A DNA stretch of 41,877 nucleotides from Nitrospirae bacterium 13_2_20CM_2_62_8 (GTDB lineage Bacteria; Nitrospirota; Nitrospiria; Nitrospirales; Nitrospiraceae): positions 1 to 41,877 of the forward strand of contig MNDM01000075.1 of NCBI GenBank assembly GCA_001914955.1. Reading direction: 5' to 3'. The notes under the pieces were generated by a model. It did not search any database. It was not told where the DNA came from and was given only the letters and a program-made list of their open reading frames with translations. Position 1 is the first letter of the stretch. Each line of letters starts with the position of its first letter. Position numbers and translations under genes: made by a program. Shown here in pieces: positions 22,731 to 26,021 of this stretch.

Positions 22731-24548
22731 CTACTCGTCGGTCACCTTGAGAAGCGCCAGGAACGCCTCCTGGGGCACCTCGACACGACCCACCTGTTTC
22801 ATCCGTTTCTTGCCCTCCTTCTGTTTCTCCCACAGTTTCCGCTTCCGGGTGATGTCCCCGCCATAACACTTGGCCGTGACGTTCTTCTTGAGCGCGCCGA
22901 CCGTCTCGCGGGCGATCACTTTATTCCCGATCGCCGCCTGGATGGCCACCTCGAACATCTGCTTCGGGATGACTTCCTTCATCCTTTCGGCGAGAAGCCG
23001 CCCTCTGAGCCGAGCCTTGTCCCGATGCGTGATGAAGGAGAGCGCGTCCACCGTTTCCCCGTTGAGCAGCACGTCCAGCTTGACGAGGTCCGACTCCCGG
23101 TATCCGATCACTTCATAGTCCAGGGAGGCGTACCCCTGGGTCTTGGACTTCAGACGGTCATAGAAATCCAGGATGACTTCGTTGAGCGGTAACTCGTAGG
23201 TAAGCATGACCCGGCTCGGGTCCAGGTACTGCAGTCCCATCTGCACGCCCCGCCGCTCCTGGCAGAGCTGGAGAATACCGCCCACGTGGCGCTCGGGCGT
23301 GATGATGGTAGCTTGAATGAAGGGCTCTTCGAACCGCTCGATCGTGGACAACGGGGGGAGTTTCGACGGATTCTCAATGGTCAGGGTCTCACCCGACGTC
23401 GTGAGGATCCGATAGACGACCGTGGGGGCCGTGGTGATCAGGGTCAGGCCGTACTCCCGCTCGAGGCGTTCCTGAATGATCTCCATGTGCAACAAGCCCA
23501 GAAACCCGCACCGGAATCCGAATCCCAACGCCAGGGAGGTTTCGGGCTCATACCTGAACGACGAATCGTTCAAGCGCAGCTTCTGCAGCGCATCGCGCAG
23601 GTCTTCAAACTGGGCCGCATCCGTCGAGTACAACCCGCAGAAGACGAGCGGCTTCACCTCCTTATAGCCCGGGAAGGGCGAGGCCGTGGGCCGGGCCGCG
23701 TCCGTGATCGTATCTCCGATCTTCGTGTCGGCGACCTCTCTCATCCCGGCGCACACATACCCGACCTCGCCCGCCGCGAGCCCGTCGGTCTTCATCCGCT
23801 TCGGCGTAAACACGCCCACCTCGATGACCTCGAAGATCCGATTATTCGACATCGCGCGAATCTTCATGCCGGGCCGGATCTGGCCATCGATCACCCGAGT
23901 CAGCACGATCACGCCCTGGTAATTGTCAAACCACGAATCGAAGACCAGTGCCTTCAGCGGCTTGTCGGGATCGCCGGAAGGTGGAGGGATTCGCGCAATG
24001 ACCGCCTCCAGCACGTCCCGGATCCCCCGGCCTTCCTTGGCGCTCACCGCCAAGGCGTCCTTGACCTCCAGCCCCAACACCTCCCGGATCTGACGCGTGA
24101 CGCCCTCGACGTCCGCGTTGGGCAGATCAATCTTATTGATGACCGGCAGGATCGTCAGGTGGTTGGCCACGGCGAGATGTGCGTTGGCGATCGTCTGCGC
24201 CTCCACGCCCTGGCTTGCATCGACCAAGAGCAACGCTCCCTCGCAGGCCGCCAGGCTGCGAGAGACTTCGTAGGTGAAGTCGACATGACCCGGCGTATCG
24301 ATCAGGTGCATCGAGTAGGTCTGCCCATCGTTGGCCCGATAGTGGAGCGCGACCGTATGGGCCTTGATCGTGATGCCCCGCTCACGTTCGAGGTCCATGG
24401 CATCGAGGATCTGTTCGCGGGACTCTCGGGCTGTGATGGCGCCCGTGGCTTCAAGGATCCGGTCAGCGAGGGTAGATTTCCCGTGATCGATGTGCGCGAT
24501 AATCGAAAAGTTCCGGATGTGAGTTTGCAAATCCCTGCTCTGCCTCAC
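22731..24548 (-). CDS. lepA: Elongation factor 4 (LepA)
   Basis: Ribosome-associated GTPase linked to translation fidelity and initiation. About 600 residues with [18 protein letters not shown] (P-loop), [29 protein letters not shown], the EF-G-like domains and the LepA-specific C-terminus ([40 protein letters not shown]). The furthest in-frame start is GTG 24548; the promoter predicts initiation near 24553, leaving about five leader bases. An alternative TTG at 24530 would give [18 protein letters not shown], close to the E. coli N-terminus. First gene of the long minus-strand run. Confidence 0.96.
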
Positions 24549-24559
24549 AAAACCGCTTC

Positions 24560-24588
24560 ATTATAGTAAGTCATCCGCATCTTGTCAA
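24560..24588 (-). promoter_or_regulatory. Perfect consensus promoter for the lepA run
   Basis: On the minus strand TTGACA (24588-24583), exactly 17 bp, TATAAT (24565-24560). Both hexamers match the sigma70 consensus at every base. The -35 box is 4 bp from the -35 box of the divergent bioA promoter. Confidence 0.85.
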
Positions 24589-24592
24589 AGAG

Positions 24593-24621
24593 TTGTCAAC
24601 GGGCCCTTGCGCCATTATAAT
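24593..24621 (+). promoter_or_regulatory. Consensus promoter for bioA
   Basis: TTGTCA (24593-24598), exactly 17 bp, TATAAT (24616-24621). Initiation near 24628 falls inside the palindrome at 24623-24644. Back to back with the lepA promoter. Confidence 0.8.
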
Positions 24622-24622
24622 C

Positions 24623-24644
24623 CGCAGACCCTGGCAGGTCTGCG
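24623..24644. promoter_or_regulatory. Operator-like palindrome over the bioA transcription start
   Basis: CGCAGACC, a 6-nt centre CTGGCA, then GGTCTGCG: a perfect 8-bp inverted repeat starting one base after the -10 box and ending 9 bp before the GTG start. It could bind a dimeric repressor or fold as a 5' hairpin in the mRNA. It does not resemble the BirA operator I know. Confidence 0.55.
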
Positions 24645-24653
24645 AGGACTCAC

Positions 24654-26021
24654 GTGACGCGACGGCTCCGTTCCCACGAGCTTGCCGACTGGGATCGTGC
24701 GCACCTGTGGCACCCGTTCACGCAGATGCAGGAATGGGAGCAGGAACGCCCCCTGATCATCGAGCGCGGGAAGGGTCCTTACCTCATCGACAGTCTCGGA
24801 CGGAAGTATTTGGACGGCGTGTCGTCTCTGTGGGTCAACGTCCACGGACACCGGCACCCCGCGCTTGACCGTGCGATCCACCGCCAGCTCGCGAAGATCG
24901 CCCACAGTACGTTGCTCGGGTTGTCCAACCCCCCGGCCATCCTGCTGGCGCGCGAGCTGATCCGTCTGGCCCCGCCGGGGCTGACCCGAGTGTTCTACTC
25001 GGACGACGGATCCACCGCCGTCGAAGTCGCGCTCAAGATGGCGGTCCAGTATTGGCAGCAGCATGTCCCGCGCGCCGGGCCGAAACGGACCTTCCTGCAT
25101 CTCAGACTCGGCTATCATGGGGACACCGTCGGCGCGATGAGCGTGGGGGGGATCGACCTCTTCCAGAAGCGGTTCCACCCGCTCCTGTTTTCTACGCTCG
25201 CCGCCGATCCTCCGTACTGTTACCGGTGTCCCCTGGGATTAGCGTACCCGTCCTGCGCGATCGCGTGCCTCGAACCGATCGAAGACATGCTGAAGCAGCG
25301 GCATCGGGAGATCGCCGGACTGATCATCGAACCGCTCGTCCAGGCCGCCGCCGGCATGCTGACCGCCCCTCCCGGCTACCTCACGCGCATCCGTGACCTC
25401 TGCAGCCGGTACCACGTGCTGCTGATTGCGGATGAAGTGGCAACCGGATTCGGGCGAACAGGACGGATGTTCGCCTGCGACCACGAAGGGGTCACGCCGG
25501 ATTTGATGGCCATCGGCAAGGGACTGACCGGGGGGTATCTTCCGCTGGCTGCCACGCTGGCGACCGAGGAGATCTACCGGGCCTTCCTGGGAACGCATGA
25601 GGAGGGGACCGCGTTCTTTCACGGTCATAGCTATGCTGGGAACCCGATCGGCTGCGCGGTGGCTCTGGCGAACCTGACAGTGTTCCGGAGAGAACGCACA
25701 CTAACTCGGATGGAGGCACGAATCTCCGCCCTCAGCCGATTGCTCCGCCCTCTCTCCAAGCTGGCGCATGTCGGAGACATCCGGCAGCGTGGCTACATGG
25801 TGGGCATCGAACTGGTCAAGGACCGCGCGACGCGTATCCCCTACCCGCTGGCGCACCGGATCGGGCATCGGGTGGCGATGGAGGCCCGTCGGCGAGGGCT
25901 GGTGATCCGGCCCCTGGGCAACGTCATGGTGCTGATGCCCCCGCTCATCACGAAGCTGCGTGAGCTCACCCGCATGGTCCGCATGCTCCACGACTCCATC
26001 CGCACCGTCACCGAATCCTAG
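24654..26021 (+). CDS. bioA: Adenosylmethionine--8-amino-7-oxononanoate aminotransferase
   Basis: Transfers the amino group of SAM to KAPA to give DAPA in biotin synthesis. The 455-residue class-III PLP aminotransferase has HLWHPFTQMQEW near the N-terminus (a BioA signature), GVSSLWVNVHGHRHPALD, FYSDDGSTAVEVALKMA, GYHGDTVGAMSVGG, the PLP-site IADEVATGFGRTGRMFAC, Schiff-base Lys289 in IGKGLTGGYLPLAATL, and FFHGHSYAGNPIGCA. Start is GTG 24654, with GAGG about 6 nt upstream. No other bio genes are in the window. Confidence 0.94.
   Translation: MTRRLRSHELADWDRAHLWHPFTQMQEWEQERPLIIERGKGPYLIDSLGRKYLDGVSSLWVNVHGHRHPALDRAIHRQLAKIAHSTLLGLSNPPAILLARELIRLAPPGLTRVFYSDDGSTAVEVALKMAVQYWQQHVPRAGPKRTFLHLRLGYHGDTVGAMSVGGIDLFQKRFHPLLFSTLAADPPYCYRCPLGLAYPSCAIACLEPIEDMLKQRHREIAGLIIEPLVQAAAGMLTAPPGYLTRIRDLCSRYHVLLIADEVATGFGRTGRMFACDHEGVTPDLMAIGKGLTGGYLPLAATLATEEIYRAFLGTHEEGTAFFHGHSYAGNPIGCAVALANLTVFRRERTLTRMEARISALSRLLRPLSKLAHVGDIRQRGYMVGIELVKDRATRIPYPLAHRIGHRVAMEARRRGLVIRPLGNVMVLMPPLITKLRELTRMVRMLHDSIRTVTES

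Follow-up and report, generated by a model that had tools for sequence, protein, structure and literature searches.

A divergent lepA/bioA promoter pair of a member of the Nitrospirota as the likely split descendant of a bidirectional promoter with a shared -35 box

The window, that is, the whole stretch of 41,877 nucleotides analysed here, belongs to a fragmented Nitrospirota assembly (Nitrospirae bacterium 13_2_20CM_2_62_8; 86 contigs, 73% complete). Within it, lepA and bioA are divergently oriented and separated by a gap of 106 bp (Table 1). lepA is the first gene of a leftward run, in which a profile match to TIGR02227 identifies a signal peptidase I gene behind it, and its start codon is uncertain (GTG at 24548 or TTG at 24530). 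bioA begins with a GTG codon, with GAGG upstream. Judged by their sequence, the two genes are served by divergent, back-to-back sigma-70 promoters with the -35 sides facing each other. The candidate promoters score 12/12 (lepA) and 11/12 (bioA), both with 17-bp spacers, and these were the 2 promoter-like sites found in 2 kb, compared with 0.3 (sd 0.6) in shuffled sequences. The initial annotation had described this arrangement, with the same hexamers at the same positions and with the -35 boxes only 4 bp apart (24589-24592), and in these respects it holds. It had not noticed, however, that the two -35 boxes are the units of one direct repeat (24582-24603), used on opposite strands. No single -35 hexamer is in register with both -10s in the window, which carries two boxes. 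The predicted lepA transcription start is at ~24553, only 5 bp before the GTG codon at 24548, so that the lepA mRNA would be almost leaderless unless TTG at 24530 is used; at locus L004, the lepA leader, assessed by eye, is ~11 bp long.

Table 1. Features of the lepA/bioA region of the window (positions in the window) and recurring gene contexts of the same exact pattern at other loci (locus handles).
Feature	Position or loci	Strand	Basis and remarks
lepA (elongation factor 4)	22731..24548	-	TIGR01393, 987.6 bits, cut-off 533.9; ORF
lepA -10 hexamer TATAAT	24560..24565	-	promoter search
First unit of 11-bp direct repeat, TTGTCAAAGAG	24582..24592	+	houses lepA -35
lepA -35 TTGACA	24588-24583	-	inside first repeat unit; 17-bp spacer
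Second unit of 11-bp direct repeat, TTGTCAACGGG	24593..24603	+	houses bioA -35
bioA -35 TTGTCA	24593-24598	+	17-bp spacer to bioA -10
bioA -10 hexamer TATAAT	24616..24621	+	promoter search
Inverted repeat, CGCAGACC-CTGGCA-GGTCTGCG	24623..24644	.	perfect 8-bp arms; 6-bp loop
bioA (adenosylmethionine-8-amino-7-oxononanoate transaminase)	24654..26021	+	TIGR00508, 538.5 bits, cut-off 405; ORF
Inositol-1-phosphate synthase / tRNA-Pro(CGG)	L170, L210, L236, L249, L252, L256		at least 6 loci; PF01658 tested in L170
PP-loop (TtcA-like) gene / tRNA-Arg(CCT)	L158, L184, L194, L228, L255		at least 5 loci; PF01171 tested in L194
ParA-type ATPase / divergent tRNA-Leu(CAA), first five loci	L147, L160, L168, L171, L188		PF13614 tested in each
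ParA-type ATPase / divergent tRNA-Leu(CAA), other five loci	L234, L237, L254, L261, L262		PF13614 tested in each
Branched-chain amino acid transporter / glutamate-racemase-like frame	Selenomonas loci, including L218		at least 2 loci; PF05525 tested in L218
thyX-like gene, no clear left partner			at least 2 loci; name from reading the translation

In relatives encoding bioA, the DNA upstream of this gene, in some cases at lepA, was cut out and then searched for the box and the -10s, with both -10 hexamers counted at 5/6 or better. The commonest form in the window's family (f1) is ATTATA-16-TTGTCAA-16-TATAAT, with one -35 box between two -10s, which reads TTGACA towards lepA and TTGTCA towards bioA. 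Of the 132 genomes of this family that were examined, the script read 124, and 120 of these contain one box together with both -10 hexamers, with spacers of 17/17 bp in 105 genomes, 17/18 bp in 14, and 18/17 bp in one; the seeming deviations from 17/17 are mostly 18-bp spacers. The script set aside 8 genomes, in which lepA matched only beyond its start (5 genomes), the stretch did not include lepA (2) or was too short (1); two genomes set aside in this way (G055 and G145) have the element at 0 mismatches, and a third, G152, is a split pair. In the other five (G064, G075, G101, G103 and G128), the stretches are cut, and these genomes are thus outside the readable set. Altogether, divergent promoters with one common -35, hereafter the fused element, are present in 122 of the 127 readable genomes of the family.

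The fused element is also present, whole or in part, in three sister families: in all 6 genomes of f2, in all 4 of f4, each time with 18/18 spacers, and in 11 of the 18 examined genomes of f3. In the remaining 7 genomes of f3, the lepA promoter is present and the bioA -10 is weak or missing. Measured between the outer edges of the two -10s, the element of most relatives spans 51 bp and that of the window 62 bp. The suggestion of the initial annotation that the promoters of the leftward run and of bioA are linked is therefore borne out in anatomy more strongly than it was made, because the relatives have a single common -35 box; its other part, the exclusion of one polymerase by the other, is an argument from geometry to which we return below. 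One of the fused f3 genomes, G032 (L282, L023), keeps both -10s around one box even though the stretch has no bioA next to lepA; its bioA is found on another contig, behind what appears by eye to be a terminator-like GC stem and a run of A, and may have been severed from its former promoter. In G034 (L144), a segment that runs from the shared box to the bioA start region, including the bioA -10, apparently occurs twice in tandem.

The five exceptions among the 127 f1 genomes are G000, G001, G155, G004 and G152. The close double box, with two boxes 11 bp apart, occurs only in G000 and G001, which represent the window's genus (2/2 genomes). Here, an 11-bp direct duplication has given the two promoters separate boxes without altering the 17-bp spacers; the two genomes differ at 10 of 110 positions, none of which is within the boxes or the -10s. 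Accordingly placed among its relatives, the window itself appears to be a split form of the shared -35 design. In G155, the bioA -10 is lost, and in G004, the box. In G152 (L295; 2566 and 4977), ~2.4 kb separates lepA from bioA, and both genes have a separate copy of the TTGTCAAAG box with a separate -10; next to lepA, the former bioA -10 has become TATAAC. This is a second split, unrelated to that in the window's genus. Because G155, G004, G152 and 7 of the 18 f3 genomes have lost the fusion, it is not indispensable. Loss of bioA was considered as a test of the bioA -10 and rejected: among the 17 family genomes without a bioA match, 11 also have no lepA match (absence being defined as no match at E 1e-100), and most of these 17 cases are probably assembly gaps rather than losses.

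The pattern ATTATA-16-TTGWCAA-16-TATAAT was searched against a reversed-pattern control. With up to 2 mismatches allowed, 41 genomes yielded 29 sites, 26 at lepA/bioA and 3 elsewhere, compared with 1 site for the reversed control; all 22 zero-mismatch sites in these genomes are at lepA/bioA, and a genome rarely has more than one copy of the full pattern. Across the order, 146 of 235 genomes have the 17/17 pattern with no more than 1 mismatch, the neighbour genes having been checked for part of the 146, and 0 of 235 have the reversed control. Among 395 genomes of the phylum, searched for exact matches with spacers of 17-18 bp, 115 have the pattern, 13 of them outside the order, against 2 for the reversed control. 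No exact pattern was found in 20 genomes from other orders of the class. Among the matches listed, the titled records holding lepA or bioA are nearly all from Nitrospira or other Nitrospirota.

In 18 genus representatives with the 17/17 form, which were chosen for an exact match so that their hexamers are fixed by this choice, pairwise identity averages 46% in the spacers and 36% in the flank on the bioA side. Independently of any exact-match selection, the lepA side reads TTGACA in all 151 box-bearing rows of the order, and the centre base of the box on the bioA strand is T in 151/151. The dinucleotide that follows the box is AG in 128 of the 151 rows, AA in 21 and CG in 2, a constancy that exceeds what the two hexamers by themselves require.

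The inverted repeat next to the bioA promoter begins, as initially described, one base past the -10 (the intervening base being 24622). It had been taken for an operator, a repressor site over +1, and this claim did not survive the comparison with relatives. The arms are perfect over 8 bp and lie at the expected start, and only 0.025 such repeats are expected in the gap between lepA and bioA, which would suit an operator bound by the biotin repressor, although the window as a whole contains 11 perfect 8-bp repeats with loops of 3-10 bp, compared with a mean of 9.8 in 10 simulations. Within the window, the palindrome has no second copy at up to 2 mismatches, and a limit of 3 adds one site, which has 3 mismatches; the genome-wide search that had been proposed as a check yielded, at up to 2 mismatches, 3 sites in its own genome and 2 for the reversed-pattern control, that is, no excess. 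At the same threshold, among the stretches around lepA or bioA from 160 genomes of the order, those of G000 and G001 alone contain it, and in G001 an arm change is uncompensated (CGCACACC...GGTCTGCG); beyond the window's genus, relatives with the lepA/bioA pair have no such palindrome in these stretches, an absence that the initial annotation itself had named as evidence against its reading. Only 1 of 123 other genomes with the element has a perfect repeat with arms of at least 7 bp starting within 10 bp of the bioA -10, and its sequence is different. The BirA-repressor domain (TIGR00122) was over the cut-off in 0 of 21 genomes, with one weak match in G011, a result to be read against a control in which 2 of 14 genomes were over the cut-off and 9 of 14 at a looser E-value (vs 1 of 21 here), and against the 73% completeness of the window's own genome. 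A BirA-regulated bio operator was rejected on these grounds, TIGR00122 over the cut-off and the palindrome upstream of bioA outside the genus both being absent. Thus, the operator reading, which we regard as very unlikely, fails because the palindrome is unconserved, has no regulon and is not accompanied by a BirA-type repressor over the cut-off. That the repeat instead acts in the bioA mRNA, as a hairpin near the ribosome site at the 5' end, is also very unlikely: the 8-bp stem folds if the RNA begins at 24622, but this start is 5-6 bp earlier than expected, whereas a start 7 bp after the -10 (24628) leaves little of the left arm and no predicted stem. Moreover, the fold is not clearly better than those of shuffled sequences (z -1.13; 31/200 as good), and conservation is lacking here as well. 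An Rfam search of the window gave no match. Most likely, the palindrome is a chance or genus-specific feature.

The history of the promoters can be traced further in the other orders of the class, where the lepA -10 is accompanied by TTGTCAA at 17-18 bp in 10 of 13 genomes, and bioA was beside lepA in the fetched stretch in 0 of 13. Because it is present there without bioA, the lepA promoter is most likely the older half. TTGTCAA is almost its own reverse complement and is therefore usable on both strands; owing to the centre base, the box provides a perfect TTGACA for lepA and a 5/6 match, TTGTCA, for bioA. Most simply, bioA would have gained a -10 at the right distance, taking over the lepA box from behind. 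The 11-bp duplication in the window's genus, with a length of about one helical turn, would have come last. The promoter architecture and its history appear well supported by these sequence comparisons, and the window is likely to be the split descendant of an ancient fused bidirectional lepA/bioA promoter.

In E. coli, bioA and bioBFCD are read from overlapping divergent promoters with a BirA operator. The bioA gene of the window would likewise be read from overlapping divergent promoters, but its partner is lepA, not another biotin gene, and no BirA-type operator or repressor was found in the searches described above. Bidirectional promoters with a shared, symmetrical -10 were reportedly described by Warman et al. 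in 2021. In the accessible parts of the source papers, known bidirectional promoters have a symmetrical -10 in common, with starts 7-25 bp apart (PMC10268837, PMC12825309); polymerase can bind in either orientation, and the binding of opposing polymerases is mutually exclusive (PMC12825309, PMC10268837, PMC11661796), with little competition at basal activity at the promoters that were tested (PMC12825309). As far as these excerpts describe that class, the likeness to it is one near-symmetrical core element read on both strands. The difference is that the lepA/bioA element shares the -35, with two separate -10s outside it, instead of one -10, and with predicted starts ~64 bp apart in the relatives and 75 bp apart in the window. 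The element would thus work like a bidirectional promoter, outside the shared -10 class, with the sharing of the -35 as a variant.

Two other systems come close in part. The Pc and Pr promoters of plasmid pLS20, in the available portion of the source, are divergent, overlapping and of unequal strength, with polymerase on only one of them, as might apply here; unlike in the lepA/bioA element, however, the proposed overlap is between the -10 of one promoter and the -35 of its counterpart, and the regulator RcoLS20 and looping are involved (PMC4207663). In the divergent umuDAb and ddrR genes of Acinetobacter, both -35 elements are similarly located in one short stretch, but according to the excerpted text, which mentions no hexamer common to both promoters, the UmuDAb operator has one of its inverted repeats there (PMC7273328). 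A literature search on lepA/bioA in Nitrospira and on shared or overlapping -35 elements found no paper on the element, within a coverage in which the sign '-35' is unsearchable and from which subscription papers are mostly missing.

A polymerase footprint extends from about -45 to +20. From the geometry of the element, we infer that polymerases would exclude each other and that lepA and bioA would be coupled: sigma region 4 should fit the shared box in one orientation at a time, so that a lepA-ward polymerase would exclude a bioA-ward one, with lepA as the stronger side of the shared promoter. In the split form in the window, the competition for one box would be gone, and the exclusion of polymerases should persist because their footprints still overlap. 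A reading that we take seriously, without quite favouring it, is that the fusion is real and has no regulatory meaning, bioA having reused the lepA -35, with purifying selection keeping each promoter separately and polymerases loading too rarely to interfere. The greater age of the lepA half agrees with this, as do the viability of lineages that lost the bioA half or split the element (G155, G152 and several f3 genomes), the retention of both halves in the window's genus after the box was split, and the little basal competition at the tested shared -10 promoters in the accessible text of that work (PMC12825309). The centre-base asymmetry, in contrast, never flips (151/151), as expected if relative strength matters, although selection on lepA alone would also give a constant centre base.

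It is unlikely that TTGTCAAAG is instead the binding site of a conserved regulator located between the promoters, with the two-strand match to the -35 being secondary. The prevalence of AG after the box (128/151 rows) could be explained in this way, but AA takes its place in 21 rows, including 4/4 genomes of f4 and 11/18 of f3, and nearly all genomes read from f1, f2 and f4 have a -10 at 17-18 bp from the box in both directions. Furthermore, the box is found with lepA alone in other orders and beside quite different genes, including tRNA genes, in other phyla, and the near single-copy occurrence of the full pattern also argues against a regulator.

A scan of genomes by the exact pattern yielded at least 117 stretches, at least 70 with lepA or bioA and at least 47 without. 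Among the latter, 12 of the loci listed are spanned by a frame of at least 100 codons, and 25 fall into five recurring gene contexts (Table 1). Because these loci in other phyla were picked by exact match, their hexamers are necessarily conserved, and the evidence consists of the recurring contexts. The contigs pairing inositol-1-phosphate synthase with tRNA-Pro are titled Anaerolineales, Anaerolineae or Anaerolinea. Those with the PP-loop gene and tRNA-Arg are titled Clostridia or Clostridiales, with a tRNA-deaminase-like gene next in at least three; here, the tRNA gene begins 10-15 bp after the -10 and therefore anchors that promoter. The at least 10 loci of ParA and tRNA-Leu are titled Falkowbacteria (5), Parcubacteria (2) or only 'bacterium' (3), and their spacers are only 49% and 37% identical; in L147, the tRNA is 350 bp distant. 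The racemase fragment of L218 had no Pfam family match, and its glutamate-racemase-like name comes from reading the translation.

It is possible, although we lean against it, that bacteria have a second class of bidirectional promoter, in which a self-complementary -35 (TTGWCAA) takes the place of the shared -10. If so, this class would have been kept for a long time in several phyla, at divergent pairs that are conserved, and would often link a gene for a tRNA or for translation with one for metabolism or partition: lepA and bioA in Nitrospirales, inositol-1-phosphate synthase and tRNA-Pro in Anaerolineae, the PP-loop (TtcA-like) gene and tRNA-Arg in Clostridia, and parA and tRNA-Leu in candidate-phyla bacteria. 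The orientation of polymerase on one box would then set the ratio of the two outputs, and box duplication, as in the window's genus and G152, would be a natural route of uncoupling. A simple pattern is now available for finding further members of such a class. Known work on polymerase competition concerns shared -10s of low basal activity, whereas here promoters of consensus strength are fused at the -35. This fused -35 is kept across most of a bacterial order, and the natural split forms in the window's genus and G152 are built-in controls, which allows a direct test of whether competition between the two orientations at one -35 ties a translation gene to biotin synthesis.
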